36,616 nt of DNA from a virus, in the IMG/VR virus record IMGVR_UViG_3300045119_000125, positions 1 to 36,616 of that record, one strand, 5' to 3'. This document shows, in pieces, positions 1 through 36,582 of the stretch. Both the position numbers and the translations under genes were made by a program. The stretch's first letter is position 1, and every line of letters starts with the position of its first letter. The notes below the pieces were generated by a model. That model saw only the letters and a list, made by a program, of their open reading frames with translations. It made no database searches and was not told where the DNA came from.

Positions 1-278
1 TCGCTGCGCCGCAATCGACGAGCCCGAAAGCGAACGTCAAAGAGCCGAGCGCGAAAAAGGGGTCGGCTAAAAGCGCGGCGAAAAAAGAGCCAGATCCTAA
101 ACAAGCATCCGTGGCGACGATATCGCTCGACCAGTCCACAGCGATCGCGGACAAGCTGAAGGAGGAGGGCGTCAAGCTCTCGCTGCTGCTCGCGCACTAT
201 GAGATCGGCTCGCTCGATGATCTGCCCGCAGACAAGTACGCGGAGGCGCTCAAGCAGATCGATGCGCTCAGCGAATGA
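1..278 (+). CDS. C-terminal end of a probable phage recombinase (Erf/RecT-like single-strand annealing protein), partial
   Basis: The 5' end lies outside the window; the open frame enters at base 3 and stops at 276-278. The visible 91 residues begin with a Lys/Ala/Ser-rich linker, followed by a compact helical tail with the pattern LDQSTAIADKLKEEG...IGSLDDLPADKY. Tails of this kind close many phage Erf/RecT-type annealing proteins; this is a recollection of the family, and the catalytic domain is not visible. A PD-(D/E)XK exonuclease three genes downstream of the small-ORF run supports a recombination module. The stop overlaps the next start by four bases (ATGA), so translation is probably coupled. 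It could equally be another DNA-binding protein with the same tail. Confidence 0.45.
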   Translation, partial: AAPQSTSPKANVKEPSAKKGSAKSAAKKEPDPKQASVATISLDQSTAIADKLKEEGVKLSLLLAHYEIGSLDDLPADKYAEALKQIDALSE

Positions 279-511
279 AGGCGCGATTCACTGTCGATGG
301 CACAGCAGCTGATGGGCAGACGTGGTTCGCCGAGGGCAGCGTGACCGGCGAGATCCCCGAGATCTTCACGGCAGCGATGCGCGACGCGTTCGGGCAGCTG
401 ACGCAGGGCAGGGCGAAATTCGGTCAACCGGGCGTCGGCTGTCGCGGCCCCTACAAGCTGCGCAAGTTCGAGCTGCTCGTGATCGAAGAGGTCGCGCATC
501 ATGGCGTCTGA
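275..511 (+). CDS. Small conserved phage protein, function unknown (78 aa)
   Basis: The start is fixed by the ATGA overlap with the preceding stop. The protein opens MKARFTVDGTAADGQTWFAE and contains an AFGQLTQGRAKFG segment followed by GVGCRGPYKL, a pattern I recognise from small proteins encoded beside phage recombination genes. No catalytic motif, membrane segment or signal peptide is visible; two antiparallel strands followed by a helix look likely. The 3' end overlaps the next gene by 11 bases. It probably works with the annealing protein and exonuclease encoded around it, but this is inferred from position only. Confidence 0.7.
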   Translation: MKARFTVDGTAADGQTWFAEGSVTGEIPEIFTAAMRDAFGQLTQGRAKFGQPGVGCRGPYKLRKFELLVIEEVAHHGV

Positions 512-689
512 TCAGCTGAGCGACGAGCAGCGCGTGCTCGCGATGATTGGGGCTCGAACGAGCCCGTCGATCACGCGCATCATGATCACGGTCGATATTC
601 TTGAGCAGCTGCTCGCTCAACCGGGCGCGGACGGCGAAGAGCAGCAGCTCGCGTTCACGCTCGTCATGGCGCGGCTGGCGGCGTCGTGA
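501..689 (+). CDS. Small helical protein, unknown function (62 aa)
   Basis: The gene begins at ATG inside the end of the previous gene and ends in a GTGA overlap with the next. The protein is predicted to be mostly helical and ends in EEQQLAFTLVMARLAAS. That C-terminus closely resembles the end of the product encoded at 850-1038 (QEFHLAFTFMLAKLAQS), so the two are probably diverged paralogues separated by one tiny gene. No domain is recognised. Its place in a chain of coupled early genes supports real expression. Confidence 0.6.
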   Translation: MASDQLSDEQRVLAMIGARTSPSITRIMITVDILEQLLAQPGADGEEQQLAFTLVMARLAAS

Positions 690-853
690 GTCGCGAACTC
701 ATGCGAGAGATCGAAGTGCTCGCGCGCAAGGCTGACGAATGCTTATGGGCAGCCTCGCAGGCGATCGCGAATCGTTCGCCGTCTCGACGTGATGTCGAGC
801 TGCGCCTCGCGCATGAGCACCTGTCGAAGATCATCGAGCTGGCGCGAGCATGA
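686..853 (+). CDS. Very small helical protein, unknown function (55 aa)
   Basis: This short frame starts with GTG at 686, which overlaps the preceding TGA (GTGA), and stops at 851-853, overlapping the next ATG (ATGA). The overlaps at both ends fit the architecture of the operon and are the main reason to call it. The product begins MSRELMREIEVLARKADEC and is charged and largely helical, with ELRLAHEHLSKIIELARA at the end. No known family is recognised. An internal ATG six codons in is an alternative start. Confidence 0.55.
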   Translation: MSRELMREIEVLARKADECLWAASQAIANRSPSRRDVELRLAHEHLSKIIELARA

Positions 854-1038
854 GCAAGCGAGACGCGCTCGCAGAGGTGACGCAGCTCATCGAGCAGCTC
901 GAACCGCGAGCGCAGCTGCGGGTCATGGAAATGGTCTGCAAGATCCAGCGCATGCACGAGACCGCGCAGGATCAAGAGTTTCATCTCGCTTTTACTTTCA
1001 TGTTGGCGAAGCTCGCGCAATCGAATTGGCCCTTCTAA
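850..1038 (+). CDS. Small helical protein, probable paralogue of the 501-689 product (62 aa)
   Basis: The start ATG overlaps the previous stop by four bases. The predicted product is helical, with a charged N-terminal half (MSKRDALAEVTQLIEQLEPR) and a C-terminal LAFTFMLAKLAQS that matches the end of the 501-689 product. It is the same length as that paralogue (62 residues). A 21-base gap with a good ribosome-binding site for the next gene follows, so coupled translation ends here. Function is unknown. Confidence 0.6.
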   Translation: MSKRDALAEVTQLIEQLEPRAQLRVMEMVCKIQRMHETAQDQEFHLAFTFMLAKLAQSNWPF

Positions 1039-1059
1039 CCCCGACAGGAGCATCTGACC

Positions 1060-2460
1060 ATGATCCCGACTGCAGCCGATGCACTTCCGTTCAGCTTTTC
1101 CCCGCTCTTCGATGCACAGCGCGACGTGTTCGCGCATTATTTTCCGACCTTCCCACTGTCGATCGACAATCGAGCGCCGCTCGCCGATTACTACAATACG
1201 CAGTATCTGAGCCCCGCAGGCGAGTCGGGCAAGTGGAAGGCGCAGGGCGGATTTCTGCGCTCGCGACCGCTGCCCGTCGCGCCGAACGCATCGAACACGA
1301 GAGCAGTGTTCTGCACGGCGAACATGCAGCGCGAAGTTCAGCTCGCGATCTCGCGAGGCTTGACCGGTTTCTGCCACGATCTCTTGAGCGTGAACGATGC
1401 GATGACGGGCACGCTGCCGTGGATGCTGAGCGCAGCAGCTGCCGTTGATACGCGATTTAAGATCGTGCCCATGTTCGATATGAACTCGCTCGGCGCGAGC
1501 TTCACGACTGATCAAGCGCTAGCGATTCTTGAACTCGTCGCCGCGTCGCCGGTCGCAAAGCGTCTGCGCGATGGGCGCATGCTGTTCTCAGCGTATAACG
1601 CCCCGGCAAAGTCGCTTCCGTGGTGGCAGTCGCTGATCGCTGCCGCGAACGCGCAGCGCTTGAGCGTCGCATTCTTGCCGGTACTCGTCGGTGGGCCGAA
1701 CGATGCAGGCACGCTCAACGCAATCTCGTGGGGCGTCGGCGCGTGGGGCACTGCGACGCCGTCGCCGAGCGCTGCGCTCAACCCGACGAAGGCTCACGCG
1801 GCGGGGCTTAAGTTCATGTCGCCGATCGACCCGCAGCAGTCGCGACCGAAGTCGAGCATCTACTGGGAAGCCTCGAACTTGCTGACGTTCATCAACGCGT
1901 GGACGGCGACTATCTCGACGGGCTGCGATCTCGTGCAGTTCGTGACCTGGAATGACTACAGCGAAGCGTCGCAGCTCGCGCCGGTCACCGATGCGACGTT
2001 CAATCAATCGCTCGGCACGGGCTTTTTCGATCTCACTGCGTTCTATGCGACGTGGTTCGCGACCGGCGTCGCGCCCGTGATCACGCGCGACGTGCTGTAT
2101 TTCTGCCATCGTCGTCACCCCTCGAACGCTGCGCATCCGAATCAAGCGAACAATTTCGCCCCGGCTGCGGGCACGGGCGCAGCCGAGGACAGCATCGAGC
2201 TGCTCGCGTTTCTGACCGACGCGGGCACGATCAAGATCAACGCGCATGCGCAAGCGGTTCCGGCTGGGATCTCAGCGTTTAAAGTGCCGCTCGAAGCCGG
2301 GGTGCCGGTGTTCGCTCTGCAGCGCAACGGCTCTGATGTCTTCAGCTGTGCGGGCCCCGCGCAGATCTATGACGCTGCGGGCATGCCGTCCGGTCTGCTC
2401 GACATGACCTACCTGTCGGGGAGCGTGAGTCTGCAAGGGCTCGCGGCGTACAGTTGGTGA
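1060..2460 (+). CDS. Glycoside hydrolase family 71-like protein (alpha-1,3-glucanase/mutanase homologue)
   Basis: The 466-residue product resembles GH71, whose members hydrolyse alpha-1,3-glucan. Visible family-like features in order are VFAHYFPTFPLSIDN near residues 23-37, AISRGLTGFCHDL near 97-109, FKIVPMFDMNSLGAS near 134-148 (the DMN carries the conserved acidic residue), WEASN near 270, and TWNDYSEASQLAP near 295-307 (the WNDY-S/G-E signature). The last 130 residues look like an added beta-rich domain. There is no signal peptide or membrane segment. A strong ribosome-binding site (CAGGAG) precedes the ATG. It sits in an early operon between tiny genes and a recombination exonuclease, an unexpected place for a glycanase. 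Catalytic activity is not established; it could be a capsule depolymerase delivered at lysis. Confidence 0.7.
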   Translation: MIPTAADALPFSFSPLFDAQRDVFAHYFPTFPLSIDNRAPLADYYNTQYLSPAGESGKWKAQGGFLRSRPLPVAPNASNTRAVFCTANMQREVQLAISRGLTGFCHDLLSVNDAMTGTLPWMLSAAAAVDTRFKIVPMFDMNSLGASFTTDQALAILELVAASPVAKRLRDGRMLFSAYNAPAKSLPWWQSLIAAANAQRLSVAFLPVLVGGPNDAGTLNAISWGVGAWGTATPSPSAALNPTKAHAAGLKFMSPIDPQQSRPKSSIYWEASNLLTFINAWTATISTGCDLVQFVTWNDYSEASQLAPVTDATFNQSLGTGFFDLTAFYATWFATGVAPVITRDVLYFCHRRHPSNAAHPNQANNFAPAAGTGAAEDSIELLAFLTDAGTIKINAHAQAVPAGISAFKVPLEAGVPVFALQRNGSDVFSCAGPAQIYDAAGMPSGLLDMTYLSGSVSLQGLAAYSW

Positions 2461-3080
2461 ACGTGCTGGCGGTCGATCAGACCGATAACGAGCTGAGGCT
2501 CGACGTCGAGCGTCACGAGTACTGGCTCGGCAAGGTCAGACTGCCGAGCGTGACGCAAGCGCTCAGCGTGATCGAGAGCTTCGACCATATCCCCGCTGAC
2601 GTGCTCGAACGCGCTCGGCTCTTCGGGCGGCACTGTCATACGATGATCGATCTATTCAACAAGGGCGAACTCGACGAGGAGACGCTCGACCCTGAACTCG
2701 CGCTCTATCTCGCGCAGTACAAGCGATTCCTGTTCGAGACTAATCTCGAAGTGACGCAGAGCGAAGAGCGCGTTTGCTCGCGATCGCTCGGCTATGCTGG
2801 CACGCTCGACATTCGAGGGATCTTGGGCGTGAGAGTGCGCCGTTATTCGCTCATCGATCTGAAGTCGGGCGCAGTGCCGCGCTCGGTCGGCCCGCAGACA
2901 GCTGCATATCAGCAAGCGTGTAACGAGAAACCGCCCCGGCGTTATGCGCTGCAGCTTGCGCGCGATCGCTTCAAGCTGATTCCGTGCGAGGACCCCAGCG
3001 ATTTCTCGAACTTTCTTTCCGCGCTCAATGTGTACCGTTTCCAACGAAGGAGTTTTTCGCATGTTGCCGAACGTGGTTGA
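2457..3080 (+). CDS. PD-(D/E)XK superfamily exonuclease (RecB/Cas4-like)
   Basis: The 207-residue product has the layout of a RecB-type nuclease: an early FGRHCHTMIDL helix near 56-66, GTLD at 115-118 giving the first metal-binding Asp, LIDLKSG at 132-138 giving the D-x-K core (D134, K136), and PQTAAYQQA at 146-154 giving the conserved Q-x3-Y motif. These residues fit an active metal-dependent DNA exonuclease. GTG at 2457 is preferred because it overlaps the GH71 stop (GTGA); TTG at 2454 is the alternative. Its likely role is resection of double-strand ends for the annealing protein encoded upstream. The 3' end overlaps the next gene by 20 bases. Confidence 0.8.
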   Translation: MNVLAVDQTDNELRLDVERHEYWLGKVRLPSVTQALSVIESFDHIPADVLERARLFGRHCHTMIDLFNKGELDEETLDPELALYLAQYKRFLFETNLEVTQSEERVCSRSLGYAGTLDIRGILGVRVRRYSLIDLKSGAVPRSVGPQTAAYQQACNEKPPRRYALQLARDRFKLIPCEDPSDFSNFLSALNVYRFQRRSFSHVAERG

Positions 3081-3741
3081 TCTGAAGATTCAAGCGCCGA
3101 CGCTGCCGACGCCCGGTGAGTTCGCGCAGCTGCTGCGCATCGCTGAGTCAGCAGTGATCGAGAACGCGCAGGACAGCGTTGATCTGCAATCGCAGCGCGC
3201 GAAGTGGAACGCCGACATGAAGGCGACCGTCGAAGAGCGGCTCGAAATCACGCGCAAGATCGACGCGGCGAAGAAAGCGATCATGGACCTCTATGAGCCG
3301 AAGCGCTCGACGCTGGAGAAGTGCATCGCGATATTCGATCGCAAGATCATCGAGTGGGACGACAAGCAGGAAGAGATCCGCCGCGATGCGCAGCGCAAGG
3401 CTGACCGCGACGCGCAGATCGAGCGCGATCGTCTGCAAGCGATCGCGGATAAAGCGGCAGCGAAGGGGCAGGACGACAAGGCGGCGCAGTTTCAAGAGCG
3501 CGCGCAGACTGTCGTCGCCCCCGTGATTCAGGCGCAGACCGGCGCAGCGGCAGGCGTATCGCTACCGAAGCGCTGGACGTTCGAGATCACGAACGCGAAG
3601 CGAGTCAACGCCGATTATCAGAGGCCCGACGAGGTGAAGATCGGGAAGACGGTGCGCGCGCTCGGTCTCGAAGCAGCTGATCTCGTCGGCCCCGGTGTGC
3701 GGATCTTCGCCGAGAAGAGCGTCGCGAGCAGACGGTCGTGA
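3061..3741 (+). CDS. Coiled-coil protein of the recombination module, function unknown (226 aa)
   Basis: ATG at 3061 follows a clear AAGGAG ten bases upstream and is preferred over the in-frame ATG at 3028, which would lie deep inside the nuclease gene. Residues from about 35 to 150 form a long charged coiled coil rich in R, K, E and D. A globular end follows (SLPKRWTFEITNAKRVNADY), closing with an IGKTVRALGLEAADLVGPGVRIF segment. Proteins with a coiled coil followed by a small domain of this type are often encoded next to phage annealing proteins and nucleases, but no activity has been assigned that I can name. A role in recombination is inferred from position. Confidence 0.7.
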   Translation: MLPNVVDLKIQAPTLPTPGEFAQLLRIAESAVIENAQDSVDLQSQRAKWNADMKATVEERLEITRKIDAAKKAIMDLYEPKRSTLEKCIAIFDRKIIEWDDKQEEIRRDAQRKADRDAQIERDRLQAIADKAAAKGQDDKAAQFQERAQTVVAPVIQAQTGAAAGVSLPKRWTFEITNAKRVNADYQRPDEVKIGKTVRALGLEAADLVGPGVRIFAEKSVASRRS

Positions 3742-6056: not shown

Positions 6057-6535
6057 ACACTCGCATAATCTGCAAGAACGGCGGCACAGCAGGCAAAGCG
6101 TGCCCCGGCTGCGGTCTGCTCTTCGGTCGTCACAAAATGAGCTGCTCGACAGTTCAGCGCGGCGCAGCTCGTCACGTGATCGCGAAGCCTCTCAAGCGGG
6201 GCGCAGCGAAGCTCGCGCTCGCGTCGATGTCGCGCGAGCAGATCGTCTCAGCGAATCGCGCAGCATCGAAGACGGTCGCTCAGCGCATCGTCGATCAGCA
6301 GCACAGCGAAGCAGTGCGTCGCGTGCAAGAGCGCGAGCAGCTGCAGACGGCGGTGGTGTATCAGATCGTCGCGCAAGCGCTGCGCAACGCGCGCCCGCGT
6401 GATCTCTACACGAACGAAGAGAGGCGCTCGCAGTGGTATGCCGACTGCACTGCGCTCTCGGTCGCGATCGCTAACTCGATCGGCGACGCGTTCAACCCGA
6501 CCGAATTCTTCGACATCGCGGGGGTGCCGTCATGA
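6053..6535 (+). CDS. Small protein with N-terminal zinc-knuckle-like motif (160 aa)
   Basis: ATG at 6053 overlaps the preceding stop. The N-terminus holds ICKNGGTAGKACPGCGLLFG and an SC five residues later, a possible zinc site. The rest is helical and basic, with a long SREQIVSANRAASKTVAQRI segment and coiled-coil character to about residue 105. The C-terminal 50 residues include YTNEERRSQWYADCTALS and FNPTEFF. The function is unknown. The basic middle and zinc-like N-terminus suggest a nucleic-acid contact. It ends in an ATGA overlap. Confidence 0.6.
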   Translation: MNTRIICKNGGTAGKACPGCGLLFGRHKMSCSTVQRGAARHVIAKPLKRGAAKLALASMSREQIVSANRAASKTVAQRIVDQQHSEAVRRVQEREQLQTAVVYQIVAQALRNARPRDLYTNEERRSQWYADCTALSVAIANSIGDAFNPTEFFDIAGVPS

Positions 6536-6900
6536 GCACAGCGCTCAACATCATCGCGAGCTGCGAGCCCGCGCACAGCAGCTTCGAGGCTTGCGCGCAG
6601 TGCGCAGCGCCGATCCCGGAACTCGAAGCGGGGCACATTCGCATGATCATGAAATCACTCGGGCTGCGCATCGAGCGCCTGCGTTATTACGTGACGCGCA
6701 CCGAGCAGGAGGCGCGAGCCTGGGGCGTCGGTGGCGCGTATCGTCGTCATCTCAAGGACAGCCGCAAGCAGAGCGTCGCGCTGAACGCGCGCGAATGCGA
6801 CAAGCTCGTGATCGTGCGCGAGCAGCAGCTCGCTGAACATCAGCACAATCTGCGCCTCGCTCTCGAAGCGCTTCGTTTCTTCAAGGAGCAGCAGTCATGA
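6532..6900 (+). CDS. Hypothetical helical protein with CxxC pairs (122 aa)
   Basis: ATG at 6532 overlaps the previous stop. Near residues 11-24 the protein has SCEPAHSSFEACAQCAAPIP, which could contribute part of a zinc site. The remainder is helical and charged (LGLRIERLRYYVTRTEQEA and LAEHQHNLRLALEALRF), likely a coiled-coil hairpin. No family is recognised. An AAGGAG near its 3' end serves the next gene, with which it also overlaps by four bases. Confidence 0.6.
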   Translation: MSTALNIIASCEPAHSSFEACAQCAAPIPELEAGHIRMIMKSLGLRIERLRYYVTRTEQEARAWGVGGAYRRHLKDSRKQSVALNARECDKLVIVREQQLAEHQHNLRLALEALRFFKEQQS

Positions 6901-7520
6901 GCAGCACGCCGAACATGTCTTACTGTCAGTTTCGCAACACGGTGCAGGCGGTGCGGCAGTGCCGCGAGACGCTCGAAGCGCTGTTCTCTAGCAGCGTCGA
7001 AGACTGCGAGGATCTGCCGCTCTCGCGCGACGAGCACGACGCAGCGAAGCTGCTCGTCGATGAGTGCATCTCGCTCGTGCTCGAAGTGGCGAGCAATATT
7101 TCGGGCAGCGACATCGATCTGCGCGAAGTGCAGGAGAACACTGACGAGCTGCTCGACAATGCGAACATGCTGGCGCGTCGCATGCGCCACTCGCTCGACG
7201 TCGCTGCAGCTGCGGGCGAAGAGGTCTGCAAGCGCTGCGGCGGCTCCGGGGTGATGATCGTCGCTGACGCAGAGAACGGCCCCGAGTTCGATAGCGAAGC
7301 GCCGTGCGAGTGCGAAGCGGGCGAGCGTCTCATGCGCGAGCAGAACGAAGCGCAGGATCGAGAGCGCGACGAGTTCGAGAACGCGAAGCTAGTCTGCCGC
7401 CGTTGCAAAGGTCCGCGTGATCCGGCGACCGGCTGCACAAACGGGCTTTGCATCACGTGTCATCGAGCGCATTGCTCAGACGGCGGCGCGACGTCGCCGG
7501 GGCATAACGTCCAGCGCTAG
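6897..7520 (+). CDS. Phage protein with N-terminal MSYCxF-type domain and two zinc-binding motifs (207 aa)
   Basis: ATG at 6897 has an AAGGAG about ten bases upstream and overlaps the previous stop; an internal ATG at 6915 would start MSYCQFRNT, the way many related phage proteins begin. Residues 7-100 are helical and match the small MSYCRF-N-T phage family I recall. A DnaJ-like zinc motif follows (CKRCGGSG near 113-120, CEC near 138-140). A second Cys cluster lies at the end (CRRCKG, CTNGLCITCH, HCS). The protein probably binds zinc and may act as an adaptor; its function is unknown. It is the last gene before a 76-base gap. Confidence 0.65.
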   Translation: MSSTPNMSYCQFRNTVQAVRQCRETLEALFSSSVEDCEDLPLSRDEHDAAKLLVDECISLVLEVASNISGSDIDLREVQENTDELLDNANMLARRMRHSLDVAAAAGEEVCKRCGGSGVMIVADAENGPEFDSEAPCECEAGERLMREQNEAQDRERDEFENAKLVCRRCKGPRDPATGCTNGLCITCHRAHCSDGGATSPGHNVQR

Positions 7521-7596
7521 TCTGCAGCGGGTTGCGCGTCGCAGCGCGCAGCTCGATGCAATCTCGCATCATCATCGCTAACACAGGAAAAATTGT

Positions 7597-8754
7597 ATGA
7601 AACCCGGAATCTCTCTCTCTGAATTGAACACCGAAGTGCAGCGTCAGGTCAGCGCCCGCGCCGACTATCTGATCAATACGCGCGCGAGCTTGCGTCTCGT
7701 GCCGATGAAGGACTTCGACAAGGGCGTCGCGCTCGTCTCGCTCGACGACGACGCGAGCACGCTGCAGCGCTGGGAGCTGACCTCGACGGCGCACGATCAG
7801 ATCGCCGGTTGGTTGGAGATCCCCCGCAAGTATTACGATCGACTGCTCGTCGATCATCTCGACATGCTGATCGACAATGTGAACAAGCTCTTCGAGCGCG
7901 AGCCCGGCACGCGCATGGTGCGAACGCTCGACGGCAAATGTCGCGCGTTCATGAGCGATCGATATCGCCGACTCGATAACGATCAGGTGCTCGCGACCGT
8001 GCTGCCCCAGATCTTGGGCGCAGGCGAAGCGGGCAATCGCTCGCACAAGATCTTGCAGAGCGTGATCACTGAGAACCAGATGGCGCTGTCGATCGTGTTC
8101 ACTGACCCCGCGCTCGCTCAGAACCTGGGGCTCGTGCGCGCCAAGGACGGTAACGGGATGGTGGACGACATCGTGCACCCCGGCTTTCGCATCGGGAACA
8201 GCGAAGTCGGCAAGGGCTCGCTCAAGATGAAGGGATTCTTCTATCGCGGGTACTGCTTGAACGGCTGCGTTTACGGGCAGTCGGGGGACTTCGAGTTCCA
8301 GCGCAACCACTCGGGCTCGAAGCTCAATGCCGACATGGAGCGGCTGATTATCACCGACGAGTCACGAGCAGCAGACGATCGCGCTCTGATGCTGACGCTG
8401 CGAGACATGATCGCGGGCATGGGTAAGATCGAAGTGGCTCAAGCGTTCGGCGACTCGCTGCGCGCTGCGAAGACCGGCGACACGATCGTCAAGCCCCTGG
8501 CGGCGATCGAGCTGCTCGCGAAGAGCGTCGGGCTGCTGGAGTCCGAGAAGGATCAAGCGCTGCTCAATCTGATCGCCGAGGCGGATATGAGCCGCTACGG
8601 TGCTCTCAACGCGATCACTGCGCTCGCGAATCAGCCGGAAGTGTCCTACGACCGGGCGTTAGAGCTGCAGGAGATCGGCGGCTCGCTGCTGACCATGACC
8701 CAGAACGAGTGGAATCGCATCGCGAACTCGCAGAAAGTGCCTGTCGCGGCGTAA
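7597..8754 (+). CDS. DUF932 family phage/plasmid protein (385 aa)
   Basis: The gene has its own ribosome-binding site (AGGAAA) after a 76-base gap that contains a short TGCGCG/CGCGCA inverted repeat but no clear promoter. The protein resembles the DUF932 (phage/plasmid-like) family in length and layout: an N-terminal region ending in AGWLEIPRKYYDRLL, then MVRTLDGKCRAFMSDRYRRL near 107-126 (the family's R-x-x-L-S-D-R-Y-R-x-x-D-N segment), and a helical C-terminal domain. The function of DUF932 proteins is not settled; they are common on plasmids and phages and are suspected to act on DNA. A parS site begins two bases after its stop. Confidence 0.8.
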   Translation: MKPGISLSELNTEVQRQVSARADYLINTRASLRLVPMKDFDKGVALVSLDDDASTLQRWELTSTAHDQIAGWLEIPRKYYDRLLVDHLDMLIDNVNKLFEREPGTRMVRTLDGKCRAFMSDRYRRLDNDQVLATVLPQILGAGEAGNRSHKILQSVITENQMALSIVFTDPALAQNLGLVRAKDGNGMVDDIVHPGFRIGNSEVGKGSLKMKGFFYRGYCLNGCVYGQSGDFEFQRNHSGSKLNADMERLIITDESRAADDRALMLTLRDMIAGMGKIEVAQAFGDSLRAAKTGDTIVKPLAAIELLAKSVGLLESEKDQALLNLIAEADMSRYGALNAITALANQPEVSYDRALELQEIGGSLLTMTQNEWNRIANSQKVPVAA

Positions 8755-9943: not shown

Positions 9944-9973
9944 AAGCCCCGCCTTAGTGCGGGGCTTTTTTTT
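9944..9973 (+). terminator. Strong intrinsic terminator ending the rightward operon
   Basis: The stem GCCCCGC / GCGGGGC with a six-base loop is followed by a run of eight T on the + strand. It lies 30 bases after the HTH gene stop and overlaps the 3' end of the convergent Rz gene (stop at 9954-9956). On the - strand the hairpin has no matching U-tract, so it mainly stops rightward transcription. Confidence 0.9.
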
Positions 9974-10484
9974 GCTTCTCAGCTTCGCTCGTGAGCATCT
10001 TGTCGCGCCACGAATTGTAGGCGTCGATCGCTGAGCGACTCTGCACGAGCAGCGCATCGCAGTCATTCAGCACAGCGACTTCGGCAGCGGCTATCGCGTC
10101 AGCTCGTCCAACTTCGCTTTGTCCTCGGGGTACTTCGACGGCGCAGCTGTCGCTGCGGGCAGCTCCGGGGGTATTGCGCACGGCGCTGGGACGTAGACTG
10201 TCCGCGTGACGCAGCCGCTCAACCAAGTCAGCATTGCCGCGCTGAAGATCATCGATAATTTTCGCATCTCGGTCCGCCCTCTCTTTGAGAATCGACGCTT
10301 CGTCGGTCTCGATCGCGCCCGCCGCTGAGGCTGCGTCCTGCTTCGTGATCGTCGTATGCTCGATGCATGACTGCGCGCCCTGTTTCTGCTCGCTCAAATT
10401 GTGCAAGTGCCACCACAGCGCTGCTGCGAGGATCATCACGATTCCGCCCGCGATCTCGATGCCGATGCGCTCCAGCGTCGTCAT
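9954..10484 (-). CDS. Rz: i-spanin (Rz-like), inner-membrane lysis protein
   Basis: The 176-residue product has one N-terminal membrane helix (IAGGIVMILAAALWWHLHNL near residues 10-29) followed by a periplasmic, largely coiled-coil domain (SILKERADRDAKIIDDLQRG), the topology of lambda Rz. A second gene with a lipobox is nested in another frame, the classic embedded Rz/Rz1 arrangement, which makes the call firm despite low sequence identity. It lies at the end of the late operon after the endolysin and holin and is expected to fuse the inner and outer membranes during Gram-negative lysis. The start overlaps the upstream gene (ATGA). Confidence 0.85.
   Translation of the reverse strand: MTTLERIGIEIAGGIVMILAAALWWHLHNLSEQKQGAQSCIEHTTITKQDAASAAGAIETDEASILKERADRDAKIIDDLQRGNADLVERLRHADSLRPSAVRNTPGAARSDSCAVEVPRGQSEVGRADAIAAAEVAVLNDCDALLVQSRSAIDAYNSWRDKMLTSEAEKQKKAPH
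10091..10267 (-). CDS. Rz1: o-spanin (Rz1-like lipoprotein), embedded within Rz
   Basis: This 58-residue frame lies wholly inside the Rz gene in a different frame. It starts MRKLSMIFSAAMLTWLSGC, a textbook lipoprotein signal with basic residues, a hydrophobic core and the lipobox LSGC (lipidated Cys19). The mature part is short and proline-rich (VPAPCAIPPELPAATAAP), as in Rz1, and would reach from the outer membrane to meet Rz. ATG at 10267 with an upstream AGAGAGG is preferred; ATG at 10252 would still leave a usable signal. Confidence 0.88.
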   Translation of the reverse strand: MRKLSMIFSAAMLTWLSGCVTRTVYVPAPCAIPPELPAATAAPSKYPEDKAKLDELTR

Positions 10485-10828
10485 GGCTGATTCCGATGCC
10501 CGAACATCTCGGCGAGCCGCTTCATGAGTGCGAGCATGCTGTGAGAGTTCGCCTTCGTCGTCTGCGTGTCGCCGCGCAGCGTCGCCATCTCTGCAGAGAT
10601 ATGCGCGCGCGTTCGCTCGTGCTCTTCGCTTAACGATTCCTTCGTGAACTCGCGCGCCAGCTCTGCGCGCTCGGCGGCTGCTATCTCGAGGGCGACGCGG
10701 CGGATCTCTTCCAAGTTGCGCCGATGGGCGCGGTTCAGCCAGACGAGATAGATCACGAGAACGGTGCAGATCACCACGGCGTACCTGCCCCAGTGCTCGG
10801 CGAGATCATGCAATATTGCGTCGATCAT
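10481..10828 (-). CDS. Membrane-anchored coiled-coil protein of the lysis region (115 aa)
   Basis: One N-terminal membrane helix (GRYAVVICTVLVIYLVWL near 14-31) is followed by about 75 residues of charged coiled coil (RRNLEEIRRVALEIAAAERA). It sits between a membrane protein and Rz, with ATGA overlaps at both ends. The topology resembles Rz, but the Rz assignment goes to the next gene because that one contains Rz1. It may be an accessory lysis or holin-regulating protein. No family is recognised. Confidence 0.65.
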   Translation of the reverse strand: MIDAILHDLAEHWGRYAVVICTVLVIYLVWLNRAHRRNLEEIRRVALEIAAAERAELAREFTKESLSEEHERTRAHISAEMATLRGDTQTTKANSHSMLALMKRLAEMFGHRNQP

Positions 10829-11226
10829 CCCTTATGCCCCCAGCCGATCACGGCGAGAATTATCGCGAAGAGTACCCCAAGAGCCCCAACCAACTTAAAG
10901 ATATTGTCCACCCTTTTCTCGATCTTCGCCGTCAGCTTGGCCTCGAACTCGGCCGACGTGCTCTTGCTCTGCTTGAGTTTGAGCGAGGCGATGATCTTCG
11001 CGATCACGTCGCTGTGCTCTTTCGAAAGGTCCGTCAGGCGCTGAAACGCCTCGAATTGATAGCGCTTTTCCTCTTCGTCGCTGTGCGAGAGTTCGCGCAG
11101 CACGCGCAAGTTCCGCACCGTCTCGTCGAGTTCCTTGCCCGCGATGGTGTCGTCGAATTCAGGGTAAAGCTCAACGGCGGGCTTGGGCGGGCGGTGATAT
11201 TCGCCCGGCCAGCGGTTCGCTTTCAT
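10825..11226 (-). CDS. Tail-anchored membrane protein of the lysis region (133 aa)
   Basis: ATG at 11226 overlaps the holin stop (ATGA). The N-terminal two thirds are soluble and charged, with a long helix from about 40 to 100 (NLRVLRELSHSDEEEKRYQF), and the C-terminus carries a single membrane helix (FKLVGALGVLFAIILAVIGW). This C-tail-anchored layout is found in several phage lysis or anti-holin-like proteins, but I do not recognise the family. Its position between holin and spanins suggests a part in lysis timing. Confidence 0.65.
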   Translation of the reverse strand: MKANRWPGEYHRPPKPAVELYPEFDDTIAGKELDETVRNLRVLRELSHSDEEEKRYQFEAFQRLTDLSKEHSDVIAKIIASLKLKQSKSTSAEFEAKLTAKIEKRVDNIFKLVGALGVLFAIILAVIGWGHKG

Positions 11227-11501
11227 GCGCTCGGCGGCGGTGCCGGATTGTCCCAGTTGCGCCCCTTCTGAACATAGATCTGCAGAATGAAGGGGAAAGC
11301 GCCCGCCATCACCGTCAGCACTGCCGTCGTAAACGCAGTGACCGCGACCGTGCGCTCGACGCTCGGCAGATGAAAATAGCTGACGCTGAAGTACACGATC
11401 GACCACGCGAAGAGCAGCAGATAGCCGACCACGATGATGCGCGGGAACACCCGCAAGCTGTCGATCACTTCGGCCCAGTCGATCAGCAGCTGCTTATTCA
11501 C
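11223..11501 (-). CDS. Probable holin (92 aa, two membrane helices)
   Basis: GTG at 11501 overlaps the endolysin stop (GTGA). The product has two clear hydrophobic helices, IIVVGYLLLFAWSIVYFSVS near 22-41 and VAVTAFTTAVLTVMAGAFPF near 52-71, and a short polar C-terminus (VQKGRNWDNPAPPPSA). Its size, topology and direct pairing with the endolysin fit a class II-type holin that opens the inner membrane. The endolysin has no signal sequence, so it needs such a pore. The later membrane proteins in the cluster could share or control that role. Confidence 0.7.
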   Translation of the reverse strand: MNKQLLIDWAEVIDSLRVFPRIIVVGYLLLFAWSIVYFSVSYFHLPSVERTVAVTAFTTAVLTVMAGAFPFILQIYVQKGRNWDNPAPPPSA

Positions 11502-11995
11502 GCGAGCGCCCCGCCCGCTTGAGCGTAAGCCGTCTGCAGCTGCGCGAGCTTGCGCTGTGGCTGACCGGAAGTGCTGCCGGGCAGCGAGGCCCAGATCCCG
11601 CTGCACGCTGCGATCGCATCGTCCAGGCGCCCGTCGTTCAAGAGATCGAGCGCGCCCTTTTGCTTGATCAGCCAGATCGCCGCATCGTCCTGACTCGGCG
11701 GCGTAAAGTTCGTGAGCTGCAGCGCGTGCTTGCATTCGCGCCACGTCGGGCGGATCAGCTGATACGCCCCGGCTGCCGTCGAGATGTCGTGCTCATACTG
11801 CGGCCCGAGATCTTTCAGCGACTCGCCGCCCCACTCGCCCGTGATGCACGGATGATCTGCGAAGCTCATGATCACGTGCTTGTAGCCGTAGCAGATTCGA
11901 TAGGGGTCTATCGGCGCTCCGGTCGCATCCTTGCGACCCAGCACGCCCTCGGAAAACTGCACCGTCTTGAGAAACGCGGCGACGTTCGGGGTCAT
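11498..11995 (-). CDS. Endolysin, lambda R-like lytic transglycosylase (GH104 type)
   Basis: The 165-residue protein lines up with lambda R (158 residues): FLKTVQFSEGV near 8-18 supplies the catalytic Glu (E16), STAAGAYQLIRPTWRE matches the STGAGRYQL region, and CSGIWASLPGSTSGQ matches CSNIWASLPGAGYGQ near the end. It should cleave the glycan strand of peptidoglycan. No signal peptide or SAR helix is present, so export depends on the holin. ATG at 11995 is preferred; it has AGGA 11 bases upstream, and the longer frame would overlap the upstream gene. Confidence 0.88.
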   Translation of the reverse strand: MTPNVAAFLKTVQFSEGVLGRKDATGAPIDPYRICYGYKHVIMSFADHPCITGEWGGESLKDLGPQYEHDISTAAGAYQLIRPTWRECKHALQLTNFTPPSQDDAAIWLIKQKGALDLLNDGRLDDAIAACSGIWASLPGSTSGQPQRKLAQLQTAYAQAGGALA

Positions 11996-12008
11996 GACGC
12001 TGCGGATC

Positions 12009-12173
12009 CTACCGCATATGCTTGCCGATCTCGAATGCAATCAGCAGTGCGGGCACGCCGACGATCGCGGCGAGCTGCGCGCACTTCGCCTTGTTCGCAG
12101 CGATGAACGCGAGCAGCGTGACCTTAAGAGCTTTCGCGTCTGCTTCGAGCTTCGCCAGTTCGGGTGTATCCAT
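12009..12173 (-). CDS. Small single-span membrane protein preceding the endolysin (54 aa)
   Basis: ATG at 12173 follows GGAGG at good spacing. The product begins with a charged helix (MDTPELAKLEADAKALKVTL) and ends with a hydrophobic span (CAQLAAIVGVPALLIAFEIG) before a short basic tail (KHMR). It starts the lysis cassette after an 86-base gap and ends 13 bases before the endolysin. It could be a pinholin, antiholin or other membrane factor; the sequence alone cannot decide. Confidence 0.65.
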   Translation of the reverse strand: MDTPELAKLEADAKALKVTLLAFIAANKAKCAQLAAIVGVPALLIAFEIGKHMR

Positions 12174-17380: not shown

Positions 17381-18318
17381 GAGCCCAGCTCCTGCGATGT
17401 AGTGGGCCCCGCAGTCAGCGCGAGCACGCCGGGGATGAAGACGCCGGGGCCGCGCCAGTGAACGAGATTCGCATAGACATCCTTGCACGTGCCCTTCAAG
17501 CGATCGCAGCCCGGGGTCAGCGAAAATGTATCGCCGGGTGCGGCGTCCTCGGGAAAGTCCTCCCACAGCTGTATCACGCCGTCTGTATTCGTCGTCGGCG
17601 AGAGCTTGATCTCGCGGCTGAAGCCCAAGTTCGCGCCGCTCGTGAAGGTCATTACGCCCCCGGCGAAGGGCAGCCCAGACGGCGGGCTCGAATCGATCGA
17701 GACGATGAACTGCTGCCGATTCGTCTCGCTGATGATCGAGCCGCTCTCGGCGAGCGCGTTCACGTTCAAGCGGCAGCGATTATCGCCGAAGCGCACCACG
17801 TTGCACGTCGTCGAGTAGGTGCGGATCAGCGTCTGCGAGAGCAGCTGAGTGAGCCCGCGCACTTCAGTCGTGTACTTGCCGTCCGAGTTGCGAGTGATCG
17901 CGCCGAGATAGCCTGCCTTCATGATCGCGTAGCCGTGCGCAGGGGCTTGCCAGTTGCACAGCAGGACCGTGACCGGGGCCATATCGAGTAGTCCCGCCTC
18001 GATTTCATCGACCGTGATGTCGCGAATTTCGGTATACGGCGCTTGCGGGAATGCGCCCTGCACTTCGAGATTATCGACCGTCATGTCGGTGCTCGACACG
18101 ATGTCGCCTGCCGTGACGTTCGCGATCGCGAGGTAGGTGCCCGCGTATTTGTCAGCCGGGGAGTCGGGCGAGTTCGTGCCACCGGGCAGCTCGATGTCGA
18201 GATCGTGATCGGTGCCGCGAATGATCTTGCCGTTCGCCATCTCGATCGTCCAAAGAAAAGCGAGCGTGGTGCAGTCGGCTTGCAGATCTGCGAGCAGCTC
18301 GGCCGGAATGTTCTTCAT
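17377..18318 (-). CDS. DUF2163 tail-tip protein (RcGTA gp13-like, 313 aa)
   Basis: The protein shows the DUF2163 layout: TLAFLWTIEMANGKIIRGTD near 18-37, VTAGDIVSSTDMTVDNLEV near 68-86, GYLGAITRNSDGKYTTEVRG near 137-156 and two conserved Cys pairs (TCNVVRFGDNRC and GCDRLKGTCKD). These Cys-containing loops probably hold a metal cluster, as in GTA and lambda L-type tip proteins. It lies between DUF2460 and NlpC/P60 genes, with ATGA and TTGA overlaps. The product is expected in the baseplate linking distal tail and hub. Confidence 0.88.
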   Translation of the reverse strand: MKNIPAELLADLQADCTTLAFLWTIEMANGKIIRGTDHDLDIELPGGTNSPDSPADKYAGTYLAIANVTAGDIVSSTDMTVDNLEVQGAFPQAPYTEIRDITVDEIEAGLLDMAPVTVLLCNWQAPAHGYAIMKAGYLGAITRNSDGKYTTEVRGLTQLLSQTLIRTYSTTCNVVRFGDNRCRLNVNALAESGSIISETNRQQFIVSIDSSPPSGLPFAGGVMTFTSGANLGFSREIKLSPTTNTDGVIQLWEDFPEDAAPGDTFSLTPGCDRLKGTCKDVYANLVHWRGPGVFIPGVLALTAGPTTSQELGS

Positions 18319-18965
18319 GGCAGCGGCAGGCGGATCTCAGCGAGCTGCACCGTCACGTTCATGATCGGCCCCGTGTTCCAATTCGAGATCGAGGGGTTTA
18401 GCTGCGCATCGAAGCGGGCCCAGATGTAGAACTCGCCGCCCCAGCTCGTCGGCGTGCCCGCGAAGCTGCCGCCGATCGTGACGAGACCCGTGCTCTCATT
18501 GAGCGTCCAGTCGGTCTGGGTGGTGCCGGTCTCGTTTGCGATCTCGATCGTCGCGCCGTCAGGCTTTAAGATCTCGCGCTCTTGAATGAGCGAGCCGACC
18601 GTGTATTGCTTCACGAGTCGATAGCTCGAGGGTGAGTCGCCCGAGACGACGAGCGGCATGTCAGTCGCTTGAGGCGTATCGTCGAGCAGGCACGACTTGT
18701 AGTCGGTCCAGTCGCGCGCTCTGAACGCGTTCGAGAGCCCGCCCATTGCATGCCAGAACGCCATGACGGCTTGTATATCGACGTTCGGGCGATCGCCGGA
18801 TGGCGACGCTGTGATGCGCGTCAGCGGGCGTGACCACATGCGCTGACGGCGCTCGAAGCCGCCTTCGCGCATGGTGATCTTCACGAGATAGTTCGGCTCG
18901 CTGACATAGCCGAAAGTCGGGCAGTTCGGAAAGATAGCTGACGTATCGGGAATGATCGTGCTCAT
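18315..18965 (-). CDS. DUF2460 distal tail protein (RcGTA gp12-like, 216 aa)
   Basis: Characteristic features are YLVKITMREGGFERRQRMWS near the N-terminus, AFWHAMGGLSNAFRARDWTDY at residues 69-89 (the family's F-R-x-R-D-W-x-D-Y motif), and a C-terminal GGEFYIWARFD. Members form the ring at the distal end of the tail tube in GTA-like particles. It starts at ATG 18965 in an ATGA overlap with the tape measure stop and ends in another with DUF2163. Confidence 0.9.
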   Translation of the reverse strand: MSTIIPDTSAIFPNCPTFGYVSEPNYLVKITMREGGFERRQRMWSRPLTRITASPSGDRPNVDIQAVMAFWHAMGGLSNAFRARDWTDYKSCLLDDTPQATDMPLVVSGDSPSSYRLVKQYTVGSLIQEREILKPDGATIEIANETGTTQTDWTLNESTGLVTIGGSFAGTPTSWGGEFYIWARFDAQLNPSISNWNTGPIMNVTVQLAEIRLPLP

Positions 18966-24014: not shown

Positions 24015-24517
24015 ACGCCCATCCCGATGCGGTACGGCGTGAGCATCTGCAGCGCAGTGTCCTCCAGCAGCTGCCACGTCTCCGTGTTGCGATCGAAGAG
24101 CTGCTCGATCTTGAGCAGGATCGCCGACTTGATGTCGCTGCGCTTCGCGTCGCTGTCGTCCTGCATGATCGGGTTCTGATTCTTCCAGTGATCGCGCCAC
24201 TGCTCATCGGTCCAGTTCCCGCTGCCCGGTATGCCAGGAAGCCCACCGATCACGAAGGGTCGATCTCCAGGCTCGACGAAGACGCCATCTTTCGCCGGAG
24301 AGTCCACCGGGTTCGGCAGCGGCACCCCTTCGTCAGCCGGAGGCGAGTCGAGTTCCATCAGCTGACCGATCGAGCGCTGCGTATAGTTTTCCGCCCAGCT
24401 CACAGCCGCATTGATCAGCAGCTGAATGCGCCGATCGTGAATCGTTAAGCCCTCGTCGATCGACAGCTGATCTTTCGCGTCTTGCAGCGTGATGAAAATC
24501 CGGGGCGAGTTGCTCAT
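24011..24517 (-). CDS. Head-tail connector protein, gp6-like (168 aa)
   Basis: ATG at 24517 overlaps the preceding stop (ATGA); a slightly earlier in-frame codon is not needed. The N-terminus reads FITLQDAKDQLSIDEGLTIH and continues DRRIQLLINAAVSWAENYTQ, the gp6/QLRG-type signature (L-x-x-A-K-x-x-L then I-x-x-L-I-x-A-A). The C-terminal DIKSAILLKIEQLFDRNTET is the second conserved helix. A Pro/Gly-rich insertion of about 45 residues separates them. It is the first connector gene after the sugar-modification block. Confidence 0.85.
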   Translation of the reverse strand: MSNSPRIFITLQDAKDQLSIDEGLTIHDRRIQLLINAAVSWAENYTQRSIGQLMELDSPPADEGVPLPNPVDSPAKDGVFVEPGDRPFVIGGLPGIPGSGNWTDEQWRDHWKNQNPIMQDDSDAKRSDIKSAILLKIEQLFDRNTETWQLLEDTALQMLTPYRIGMGV

Positions 24518-25257
24518 CGATAGTGCTCCGCGATCCACTTATGCTTTCGCTGTATGTGGACGTCCCAGGGGTCGACATGCCCGTGCATTATCACTATTTT
24601 CGCCGTGGGGGGAAGGACCCCGCCCGCAGGCATGATCTGATTGCGATACGAATACACCCCATCGGCCTTCGTAAACTTCGCCTCGTGAGGCCCGAGACAC
24701 GCGCCGATCCACGCTTGATCGCTGCCGATGTATTTCAGCTGCAGCCCGAGCGCGGGGCTCGTGTAGGGGTCGAACTTCTCCCACAGCTGGGGTCGAGCGC
24801 CCGCCTTGTGATAGATCAGCGAGCCGTTGTAGGGGGTGCCTCGCGCAGTGTCGCCGTACATCTTGAAATCAATATCGGTCTCAAAAAGCGAGGTGATTTC
24901 CCGGCAGATAACCACGTCAAGATCGATCGAGCAGATGCGGGGCCCGAACAACTCGCCAGCTCCGCGAGAGAACATCTTAAGTCGCCGATAGCACGAGGGG
25001 TTGAGCCCACGGTGCGGGCTTGGAATGTTGGCATAGTCGCTCCACAGCTTGATGATACGAACGCGCGGATCGATACCGCCAGGATCGTCGGTGACGCAGA
25101 CCAACTCGAAGGGCTTCAAGTAATGCCGCGAGAGCATGTTGAAAAGCACGTTTACGGTGTCGGGCGAGAACTTCGAGCGATACCCGACCATGGGCTTCCA
25201 CTTCCAGCAGACGAAGGTCAGCCGATCTTTCGCTGCGACATTGAGCTGCGCGTTCAA
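24514..25257 (-). CDS. GT8-like glycosyltransferase (247 aa)
   Basis: A TTG start at 25257 is supported by GGAGG at good spacing and a TTGA overlap with the previous stop. The GT-A pattern is visible: LTFVCWKWKPMVGYRSKF at the N-terminus, CYRRLKMFSRGAGELFGPRI before ICSIDLDVVI with the DxD (D112, D114), then YNGSLIYHKAG and YIGSDQAWIGACLG, ending in a conserved HGHVDPWD. Enzymes of this shape move a sugar from a nucleotide donor. The acceptor cannot be predicted; it lies in a block with five other modification genes. Confidence 0.75.
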   Translation of the reverse strand: MNAQLNVAAKDRLTFVCWKWKPMVGYRSKFSPDTVNVLFNMLSRHYLKPFELVCVTDDPGGIDPRVRIIKLWSDYANIPSPHRGLNPSCYRRLKMFSRGAGELFGPRICSIDLDVVICREITSLFETDIDFKMYGDTARGTPYNGSLIYHKAGARPQLWEKFDPYTSPALGLQLKYIGSDQAWIGACLGPHEAKFTKADGVYSYRNQIMPAGGVLPPTAKIVIMHGHVDPWDVHIQRKHKWIAEHYR

Positions 25258-25979
25258 GGGAAAATCCTCCGATAAGGAAAGCTCAGGTTCAGCGGGCGCC
25301 AGTCGAGATCGCGGCCGCGCTCGACCTTGATGCGCTGAATAGCGCCGACATCCTCGGGCGCACCCTTACGAACATACGTCGTCGTGCTCGCGTCGCTGAT
25401 CGTCGAGCGGGGCACGCGATAGATCGAGCTGTCGAGCATCACGGGCTCGCCCGACTGACGCACCAAGCGATCGCGAAACTCGGCGTCCGTGCCGTAGTGA
25501 CCGGCAAAGCGCTCATCGTATCCGCCGATTTTCCAGTACAGCTCGCGCGACATGAGCCACGTGTTCGGGTGCGGCTTGTACGGGCTGCGCTCGTCGGGCA
25601 GTGCGTCGAGCGTCTCACGCGTGAATCGATACGCGCGCAGCGCGTCGAGCTTGTGCGCGATCAGCCACTCGAACGTCGAGCACGGCACGAGATGATCGAT
25701 GTCGGTCAAGAGCAGCCAGCGCGCTGTCGAATGATGCGCCGCAATGTTGCGGGCGGCGTCTTGATTCCAGCGCACATCGACGTCGATGCGAAAGATCGTC
25801 AGAGGACAGCCGATAGGCGCAGCCCTGGCCTCGCCATTGGGAGATCCGTCGTCGGTGATCAGAACCTCAAGCCGATCGAGAACGCCTTGGGGAAAGCTCC
25901 GTAGTCGGTCGAGCTGCTCATCGAGCATGCCCTGATTCATGTAATACGGCATGCAGAGCGCAATCAAACGGCTTGGCAT
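25254..25979 (-). CDS. GT2-family glycosyltransferase (241 aa)
   Basis: ATG at 25979 is preferred because the protein then begins with LIALCMPYYMNQGMLDEQLD, the first strand and helix of a GT-A fold. RWNQDAARNIAAHHSTARWL precedes LLLTDIDHLVP, with the DxD at 93-95, and the C-terminal part has GYDERFAGHYGTDAEFRDRL, the family's acceptor-side motif. It resembles the GT2/GT7-like enzymes found in other phages near structural genes. It overlaps the upstream gene by 16 bases and the downstream one by four. Confidence 0.8.
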   Translation of the reverse strand: MPSRLIALCMPYYMNQGMLDEQLDRLRSFPQGVLDRLEVLITDDGSPNGEARAAPIGCPLTIFRIDVDVRWNQDAARNIAAHHSTARWLLLTDIDHLVPCSTFEWLIAHKLDALRAYRFTRETLDALPDERSPYKPHPNTWLMSRELYWKIGGYDERFAGHYGTDAEFRDRLVRQSGEPVMLDSSIYRVPRSTISDASTTTYVRKGAPEDVGAIQRIKVERGRDLDWRPLNLSFPYRRIFP

Positions 25980-26599
25980 TCGACCTCCAGCTGACGGGGT
26001 GAGAGTGGCAGAAAGGGCAGACGAAACGTGTTCTCGCAGACGATGCGCGTGAGCACCCCCGCAGCGCGCAGCTGCTGCGACGCCTCGGAGAACTGTAGCG
26101 ACCACTCGTCGAGCCGCTTCGCGCCGGTCGATGTCTTCGACCAGGAGTAAGGCGGGTACCAGTGCGCTTCATCGTGCGGGCCGCGCTTCATGTCGAAGCC
26201 GACGAGATAGAGCTGCTTCGGTCGCATCTGATAGGCCAAGTTCAGGGCGCAAAAGCCCGAGTGGGTGCCGTTCAGCTTGCCGCGCTCATCGCTCAACGTG
26301 GTCGATTCGTGATCGCAATCAAATAGCTCGACGTCCATGCTGTCGAGGTTCAGCGGGTTGGTGAGCACGGCGCGCAGATCGCCCTTGACCGCTTGCGAGC
26401 GAAGCCAGATCGGCTTGCCGAACTTCGACACTTGCGCGAAACGATGCTCCATCCACAACCGATCCATGCTCACGATCGCATCGACGCGTGGCGCATAGAT
26501 CGCAGCGTCATTGACCGCGATCACGTAGCCCGGCAATCGGCGCAGATTCACGCGCGACGCTGACCAACCGCCCGCGACGATCGTCACCGATTCTTTCAT
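25964..26599 (-). CDS. DUF115/GT42-like Rossmann-fold protein (211 aa), paralogue of the frameshifted gene
   Basis: ATG at 26599 overlaps the methyltransferase stop (ATGA); a longer open frame lies over that gene and is disregarded. The protein starts with a Gly-rich loop, SVTIVAGGWSAS, followed by VIAVNDAAIYAPRVDAIVSM and later GTHSGFCALNLAYQMRPKQL and YLVGFDMKRG...HW. This layout (G-x-G/S-x-S near the start, then SG-x-x-A-x-x-x-A and L-x-G-x-D) is shared with DUF115 and GT42-type sialyltransferase-like proteins, so a sugar- or nucleotide-binding role is likely. It is a diverged copy of the -1 frame product at 28345-29043. Confidence 0.65.
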   Translation of the reverse strand: MKESVTIVAGGWSASRVNLRRLPGYVIAVNDAAIYAPRVDAIVSMDRLWMEHRFAQVSKFGKPIWLRSQAVKGDLRAVLTNPLNLDSMDVELFDCDHESTTLSDERGKLNGTHSGFCALNLAYQMRPKQLYLVGFDMKRGPHDEAHWYPPYSWSKTSTGAKRLDEWSLQFSEASQQLRAAGVLTRIVCENTFRLPFLPLSPRQLEVECQAV

Positions 26600-27234
26600 G
26601 CGGTGTAACTCATGGTCTCGAATTTGATGCCCCAGTGAACGCGCATCGGCGAGCTGAACGCTTTCGACAGCTCGCGCTGATACGCAAAGGCGATTCCGGG
26701 GTTTCCCTTCGCGCCGCCGCGCACATCGACGATGATCTGCGTTTGCCCCTTGATCGAGCAGCTCTTGACGAAATCGATGTAGCGCGAAGGTGGGTAGTGA
26801 AAGCACCAACTTTTGAGCGAGATCACGAGATCATAAAAATGCGGCGCGCGAGGCGCTTCAGGTCTGATCGCGTGAATGCGCTCGACGCCGTTCAGCTGCA
26901 GAAAATTGCGGGCGATATCGAAGTTCGAGAAGGTCTCGGCGTGGTTCGTCATCTGCGGCAGATCATCGACGCCATCGAGCAGCGACACGCTGCAGCCGCC
27001 GCCGTAGTGACGATTGAGCAAGATGTTGATCCCTCCCATGCCTCCGCCGATGTCGAGAATCGTGTCGCAGCGCTTCGGCAGGAACGGCTCGATCGAGCGA
27101 AACTCGCTCGCGAGCATCTCGGCATACTTGCCGAGCCAGAGCGCGCGATCGTCCTTCATATCATCGAGCGCCCCGCGCTGCTGCACGAGATACGGGTACA
27201 CAAAATCCGGCACCGCAATTTCGTGACTGATCAT
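26596..27234 (-). CDS. Class I SAM-dependent methyltransferase (212 aa)
   Basis: ATG at 27234 overlaps the upstream stop (ATGA). Motif I is clear: CDTILDIGGGMGGINILL near 56-73, with the acidic end of strand 2 at SVSLLDGVDD. The N-terminal 50 residues are a helical lid (KYAEMLASEFRSIEPFLPK). The later YDLVISLKSWCFHYPPSRYI fits motif IV with an altered catalytic sequence. It resembles small phage or sugar O-methyltransferases more than DNA methylases: no DPPY or PC motif is visible. Methylation of a transferred sugar is the best guess. Confidence 0.78.
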   Translation of the reverse strand: MISHEIAVPDFVYPYLVQQRGALDDMKDDRALWLGKYAEMLASEFRSIEPFLPKRCDTILDIGGGMGGINILLNRHYGGGCSVSLLDGVDDLPQMTNHAETFSNFDIARNFLQLNGVERIHAIRPEAPRAPHFYDLVISLKSWCFHYPPSRYIDFVKSCSIKGQTQIIVDVRGGAKGNPGIAFAYQRELSKAFSSPMRVHWGIKFETMSYTA

Positions 27235-35875: not shown

Positions 35876-36582
35876 GGCTTCGCGTCAGCTGCGCCCTCGA
35901 GCGACTCGACTCGCTGATCCTTGAGCACGTTTTTCTTGTCGATCGGGTGCCAAATGTACTTCGTCAGCGGCGTGAGCTGCTGCTTCACGAGCTTCGCGAA
36001 CGCTTGCACGTCCTTCTCGGTGCGAAAATGCACGATGATCGAGCGAAAGGCCATGCGATCGGGCTGATTGAACTCGGGCATGCCGCGCGCAAAGTGCCCT
36101 TGCGGGTCGAGTGGGTCGGCGTTCGGGGCCCACAATCGAGCGAGATCAGCGTCAGAAAAGCCGACGAGCGTCGTGTCGAATGCGTTGAGCTTCATCCATT
36201 CGACCTCTTCGCCGAGCTTGAGCATGTCCCAGTCAGCGTTCAGCGCGAGCTGATTGTCAGCGATCACGTACTGACGACGGGTGTCGGCGTCCATCCAGTC
36301 GGCGACGATGCACGGCGCAAATTCGAGGCCTAACTCCTGCGCTGCGAGCAGTCGACCGTGACCGGCGATGATCTCGCCGTCTGCTGAGATCAGAATCGGC
36401 ACTGTCCAGCCGAAGCGCTCGATCGAGCGAGCGAGCTGCGCGATCTGCACCGGGCTGTGCATGCGCGAGTTGCGCTCGAACGGTTTCAAGCTCTCGATCG
36501 CTCTCGATTCGATCGTTTTCGAGACGCTCAGCGGCGCTTTGGCGCTCAAGCTGCCCCCCTGGGCTTCAAATTCGCGACCCAC
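35872..36582 (-). CDS. ParB/sulfiredoxin-fold N-terminal domain protein (236 aa)
   Basis: Residues 25-110 form a ParB-like domain: NSRMHSPVQIAQLARSIERF near 38-57, VPILISADGEIIAGHGRLLA near 61-80 (the GHGR at 74-77 is the nucleotide-binding core) and LGLEFAPCIVADWMD. The C-terminal third (FRSIIVHFRTEKDVQAFAKL and WHPIDKKN) is a small domain seen in other phage proteins. There is no centromere-binding helix-turn-helix, so it is not a full partition ParB. GTG at 36582 is the longest start but has poor spacing; TTG at 36549 after GGGGGG is an alternative. It leads the leftward operon in this window. Confidence 0.8.
   Translation of the reverse strand: MGREFEAQGGSLSAKAPLSVSKTIESRAIESLKPFERNSRMHSPVQIAQLARSIERFGWTVPILISADGEIIAGHGRLLAAQELGLEFAPCIVADWMDADTRRQYVIADNQLALNADWDMLKLGEEVEWMKLNAFDTTLVGFSDADLARLWAPNADPLDPQGHFARGMPEFNQPDRMAFRSIIVHFRTEKDVQAFAKLVKQQLTPLTKYIWHPIDKKNVLKDQRVESLEGAADAKP

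Follow-up and report, generated by a model that had tools for sequence, protein, structure and literature searches.

The window analyzed here is the whole 36,616-nt IMG/VR record IMGVR_UViG_3300045119_000125 (positions 1 to 36,616), a siphophage-like record with terminase, portal, protease, capsid, tape measure and GTA-like baseplate proteins. A GH71 glycoside hydrolase gene is located on its + strand in a tight array of five tiny ORFs, GH71, a phrog_298 exonuclease gene and the gene of a phrog_10477 protein. The tail genes (12.3-22.5 kb) and the lysis genes (9954-12040, -) are both far from it and on the opposite strand, in agreement with the sequence-only reading, which had placed the enzyme far from the tail genes. 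The features are as follows:

111..1038, +, five short ORFs that overlap one another (55, 78, 62, 55 and 62 aa), located 5' of GH71 in the same apparent operon (coordinates)
1043..1049, +, ribosome binding site region ACAGGAG ahead of the GH71 ATG (sequence)
1060..2460, +, GH71 glycoside hydrolase gene, 466 aa (PF03659, PDB matches, fold match and residue mapping)
2457..3080, +, phage exonuclease of 207 aa when translated from the GTG, with TTG 2454 as the start of the listed ORF (phrog_298, 2.7e-16)
3028..3741, +, 237-aa protein whose PHROG carries the annotation exonuclease (phrog_10477, 1.8e-13)
9954..11744, -, probable remaining lysis cassette, several small proteins with one hydrophobic segment each (hydropathy and translations)
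11498..12040, -, endolysin (phrog_90, 1.9e-34), 43% identical to the endolysin of relative L030
12260..12949, -, tail-end protein matching Laminin_G_3, a ConA-like lectin family (PF13385, 1.6e-11), and a possible carbohydrate-binding partner
18315..18965, -, unfused DUF2460 distal-tail-type protein (PF09343, 6.6e-33)

The GH71 ORF is intact: it starts with ATG, an in-frame stop codon lies 7 codons 5' of the start, and AGGAG is found ∼10 nt upstream. Its stop codon is overlapped by the GTG start of the exonuclease gene (GTGA). The gene had been described as lying between tiny early genes and an exonuclease; the five small ORFs and the exonuclease are real, and the term "early" is taken from gene order only. 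Relatives of this exonuclease, annotated "exonuclease", are found in Xanthomonas, Stenotrophomonas and Pseudomonas phages. The GC content (0.627), GC3 (0.771) and codon usage of the GH71 gene match those of the remaining phage genes; a recent foreign insertion was considered and rejected since the composition gives no sign of acquisition. Also in the early region, a 385-aa phrog_1362 protein (1.7e-38) with no assigned function is encoded at 7597-8754 (+). In the lysis region, 9954-10484 (-) is Rz-like by layout only, a spanin assignment without a family match.

Pfam analysis of the GH71 protein gave a single family, Glyco_hydro_71 (PF03659, E 3.5e-30, residues 84-428), at 105 bits against a curated cut-off of 34, and a phmmer search of all PDB sequences matched just three chains, each of them GH71, so that the assignment is well above what chance would give. 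The motifs FDMN and WNDYSE are at residues 139-142 and 297-302. A 466-residue GH71 homologue with these two motifs is thus what the locus encodes, as had been claimed. Also as claimed, there is no signal peptide: Kyte-Doolittle analysis found no hydrophobic segment at the N-terminus, so the protein lacks a usual, non-defining trait of GH71 enzymes, which are extracellular. It consists of the catalytic unit alone, a barrel and a C-terminal sandwich, and carries no further domain for anchoring.

For this protein an AlphaFold2 model was built with 12 sequences of the window and the loci as input (pLDDT 70.7, pTM 0.76). Foldseek ranked solved GH71 enzymes best (E about 1e-20 to 2e-23), and the model aligned with GH71 structures at Z 28-30 over 352-359 residues, as compared to Z ∼22-23 for GH99. 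The proposed fold check therefore came out in favor of GH71, and the match takes in both the beta/alpha-8 barrel and the packed C-terminal beta-sandwich. In the alignment to Agn1, window residues D299, E302 and D140 correspond to D237, E240 and D69; PDB 9m6l, the Agn1 D237N mutant, confirms the numbering used. D299 and E302 also correspond to D265 and E268 of AnGH71C, the general base and general acid, whose alanine mutants lost activity by ∼6,000- and 15,000-fold, respectively (PMC12394665). The window protein thus carries the D-x-x-E catalytic pair of GH71. Strand 8 of the model is formed by residues 291-294, and D299 and E302 come next, at the start of the beta8-alpha8 loop, where the catalytic pair of AnGH71C is likewise found. 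A superposition of the catalytic acids had been suggested as a check; the residues align in sequence, and the active-site loop that contains them (297-320) follows strand 8 as expected but is modelled at pLDDT below 50. A second structure prediction with 13 rows gave no better loop.

This loop, together with the large insertion relative to the fungal enzymes, is what speaks for a repurposed, catalytically dead GH71 fold that only binds its ligand. D140, D299 and E302 are invariant in 13 of 13 aligned phage and bacterial GH71 sequences, and we regard a dead fold as highly improbable. From the sequence and the model, we strongly infer that the window GH71 is catalytically competent.

The window protein carries ∼45 extra residues after beta-strand 1 relative to the fungal enzymes, and at this place 62 of its residues stand against 13 in Agn1. 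In phage-type GH71 proteins 68-76 residues separate the strand-1 AHY motif from the G-x-T/D-G-F motif, compared with 28 in one other bacterial GH71 protein. A ∼50-residue region between beta1 and alpha1, wrapping one side of the cleft, is present in GH99 and absent from AnGH71C. Because of the insertion, the fungal substrate is an unsafe guide, and the window enzyme may act on a substrate other than plain alpha-1,3-glucan. The description of GH71 as a chiefly fungal family does not hold, since bacteria account for about half of the diversity known in it, a half that is uncharacterised (PMC12394665).

No GH71 relative was found in a search of 50,697 phage records. Scans of IMG/VR turned up GH71 on ten further phage contigs, in eleven genes that all keep both catalytic residues; just one of the eleven (L030) came from extra alignments, and the set looks nearly saturated for the patterns used. 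The relatives occur in three settings. In L010 and L012, DUF2460 is joined to GH71 through a glycine-rich linker, the L010 fusion ending in a legume-lectin domain, and in L014 GH71 is fused to another tail-module protein. Free copies are found within tail modules in L008 and L011, and early or mid genome in L003, L002/L004, L009 and L013; those of L003, L002/L004 and L009 adjoin nuclease genes, among them two with VRR-NUC matches slightly under the Pfam cut-off. In L003, the stop of a YqaJ exonuclease gene overlaps the GH71 start, similar to the overlap in the window. The third setting is in or just after the lysis cassette. L030 has an endolysin, a small membrane protein and GH71, the end of which is overlapped by a gene that matches Rz-spanin weakly; its endolysin, two genes 5' of the free GH71, is the one similar to the window endolysin. 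In L015 the order is endolysin, membrane protein, Rz and then GH71. L014 and L030 are on one 132,772-base contig (IMGVR_UViG_3300044691_000355), which carries two diverged copies, one tail-fused and one in a lysis cassette. The bacterial forms have a hydrophobic segment at the N-terminus that is absent from the free phage forms.

Two side observations come from these contigs. L013 (9842-10741) and L030 (9784-10467) share a ∼175-aa domain 3' of GH71 at 62% identity; the L013 domain had no significant Pfam match, and our guess is a beta-sandwich carbohydrate-binding module. L008 contains at 6305-7951 a 548-aa methyltransferase ORF with an apparent intein-like interruption (CFAQGTEILAESGWKPIEQVAIGELVMALD... 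ending ...LWAGNC).

The tail-associated relatives raise the question of a virion-bound depolymerase, in which the free GH71 would sit on the tail, e.g., via DUF2460 or the lectin-like proteins, and open the slime at adsorption. Fusions with tail-module proteins occur in three relatives, L008 and L011 have their free copies among tail genes, and the unfused DUF2460 of the window is 52% identical to the DUF2460 domains of the L010/L012 fusions, with the order tape measure, DUF2460, baseplate hub the same in the window and the fusion phages by inspection. The window gene, however, lies outside the structural operon and encodes a catalytic unit without an anchoring domain; it is a free gene of an early operon and not a part of the tail module or of a virion protein, the usual places of a tail-spike or tail-fibre depolymerase. 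We consider virion attachment unlikely.

The early position of a non-exported gene coupled to an exonuclease gene, with its parallel in L003, could instead point to a role inside the cell, on lipid-linked EPS precursors, cytosolic glucan or a sugar of the phage DNA. The window also encodes a TET-associated glycosyltransferase (TAGT, 1.7e-42) at 34988-36582 (-), beside a ParB-like gene, which may serve in sugar modification of phage DNA. TAGT was not found in the L002 and L003 records, which may be fragments, and we dropped a link between GH71 and DNA glycosylation. Tail fusions and lysis-cassette copies point outward and the bacterial relatives are secreted, so that an intracellular role appears quite unlikely. 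A search for Tet_JBP in the window gave no match, though the search control gave none either. Two glycosyltransferase genes and methyltransferase genes lie between the capsid gene and the head-tail connector genes (24514-28412, -), and L002 and L008 have glycosyltransferase/methyltransferase pairs near GH71 or structural genes, which by tblastn are not homologous to those of the window.

Pseudomonas phage phi2 has a TerL with 53% identity to the window TerL; this likeness, and that of the exonuclease to proteins of Xanthomonas/Stenotrophomonas phages, suggests a gammaproteobacterial host. In the Gammaproteobacteria MAG Centralia_MAG_79 (JAJPKM010000021.1), two GH71 genes, whose products have a lipobox or signal peptide, flank an EPS locus containing Wza-like, Wzz-like, Wzx-like and glycosyltransferase genes. 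GH71 is rare in genomes around this MAG (1/200 in the family, 1/246 in the order, 1/369 in the class and 2/398 in the phylum), and we rejected a conserved chromosomal host gene for this reason. The rarity also makes the bacterial sampling for the GH71 tree thin. In the tree, the window copy groups with L003 (100/99), the three fused copies with one another (100/100) and the L011 copy with Nonomuraea (100/100). The phage copies other than that of L011 form one clade (94/96), which is provisional because there are few bacterial rows. If the L011-Nonomuraea pairing reflects transfer, phages would have taken up GH71 at least twice.

The gene might also be an auxiliary or moron gene through which the host or a lysogen uses fungal or environmental alpha-1,3-glucan, the best-known GH71 substrate being the fungal polymer. 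L003 has an integrase and L009 an integrase-like gene (by eye). No integrase was found in the window record, whose ends may be fragment ends; a protein without a signal peptide would have no Sec export from a living lysogen, and the locus of the nearest bacterial copies is one for EPS biosynthesis and not for glucan use. We judge this explanation very unlikely. The term moron, one of three options offered before, fits the variable gene position and explains no function. Among those options, a depolymerase released at lysis is best supported, by tail fusions and by relatives in or next to lysis cassettes, and a repurposed fold is disfavored by the invariant catalytic residues.

We concluded that the product of the window gene is probably a catalytically competent GH71 hydrolase directed at host EPS, which would be made in the cytosol and released at lysis. 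D299 would activate water and E302 would protonate the leaving group, resulting in inverting cleavage of an alpha-linked glucan or a related host extracellular polysaccharide. Without an export signal, the enzyme would accumulate in the cytosol during infection and be freed when the phage lyses the cell, the simplest route out, for which the capsule depolymerase of phage TP-84 offers a precedent (PMC10131341). Outside, it could thin the slime or capsule round neighbouring cells, letting progeny get through to these. We infer the activity, substrate, release at lysis and benefit; action outside the cell is suggested because relatives occur in tail fusions and lysis cassettes. The window enzyme is, as expected of a soluble depolymerase, free and non-exported in a phage with a lysis system. 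Counting against release at lysis, the gene and the lysis cassette are far apart and on different strands, the gene lies beside recombination genes, and a lysis-released enzyme needs no early synthesis. The early position and the exonuclease coupling are unaccounted for by this reading and may be just where the gene landed.

For the phage group as a whole, we give about even chances to a shared mobile domain for EPS depolymerization, namely a GH71 subtype that is kin to EPS-locus enzymes and whose beta1-alpha1 insertion resembles that of GH99. It would be deployed as a distal-tail fusion for entry, as a lysis-cassette gene for exit and, in the window phage, as a free early enzyme, with one contig carrying entry and exit copies. 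Most of the known phage depolymerases are tail spikes. The literature searched contained nothing relevant on GH71 with phage or auxiliary metabolic genes, which is weak evidence as the search was thin on subscription journals. Our results add to the candidate phage depolymerases a family without a phage record in that literature or in the phage collection searched, its catalytic domain occurring free, linked to lysis genes or fused to tail proteins. They also offer concrete enzymes for assays in the uncharacterised bacterial half of the GH71 family and point to alpha-linked EPS as a barrier for phages of uncultivated bacteria.

Compared with known systems, the window protein shares the barrel, the C-terminal sandwich and the D-x-x-E after strand 8 with the fungal enzymes Agn1 of S. 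pombe (8yfh, 9m6l) and AnGH71C of A. nidulans (9fnf-9fnh), at 19-21% identity over ∼355 residues; the phage/EPS type differs from them in the longer beta1-alpha1 segment and, in the window, the missing signal peptide. GH99 endo-alpha-mannosidases/mannanases, the second-best fold match, have the comparable beta1-alpha1 region but an ExxE pair and mostly retaining action, and the match is limited to the barrel. The GH71 proteins of Centralia_MAG_79 are closer (48-50% identity for the L005 copy), having the long N-terminal insertion and motifs in common with the window protein, but they are chromosomal and carry a signal peptide or lipobox. The fused GH71 domains of L010, L012 and L014 (47-50% identity, both catalytic residues kept) are covalently attached to a tail-module protein, whereas the window copy is free and early. 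TP84_26, the capsule depolymerase of the Geobacillus phage TP-84, is GH18-like and larger; it too is a phage polysaccharide hydrolase, found both soluble and in virions, and its gene clusters with holin and endolysin genes, as GH71 does with lysis genes in L030 and L015 (PMC10131341).
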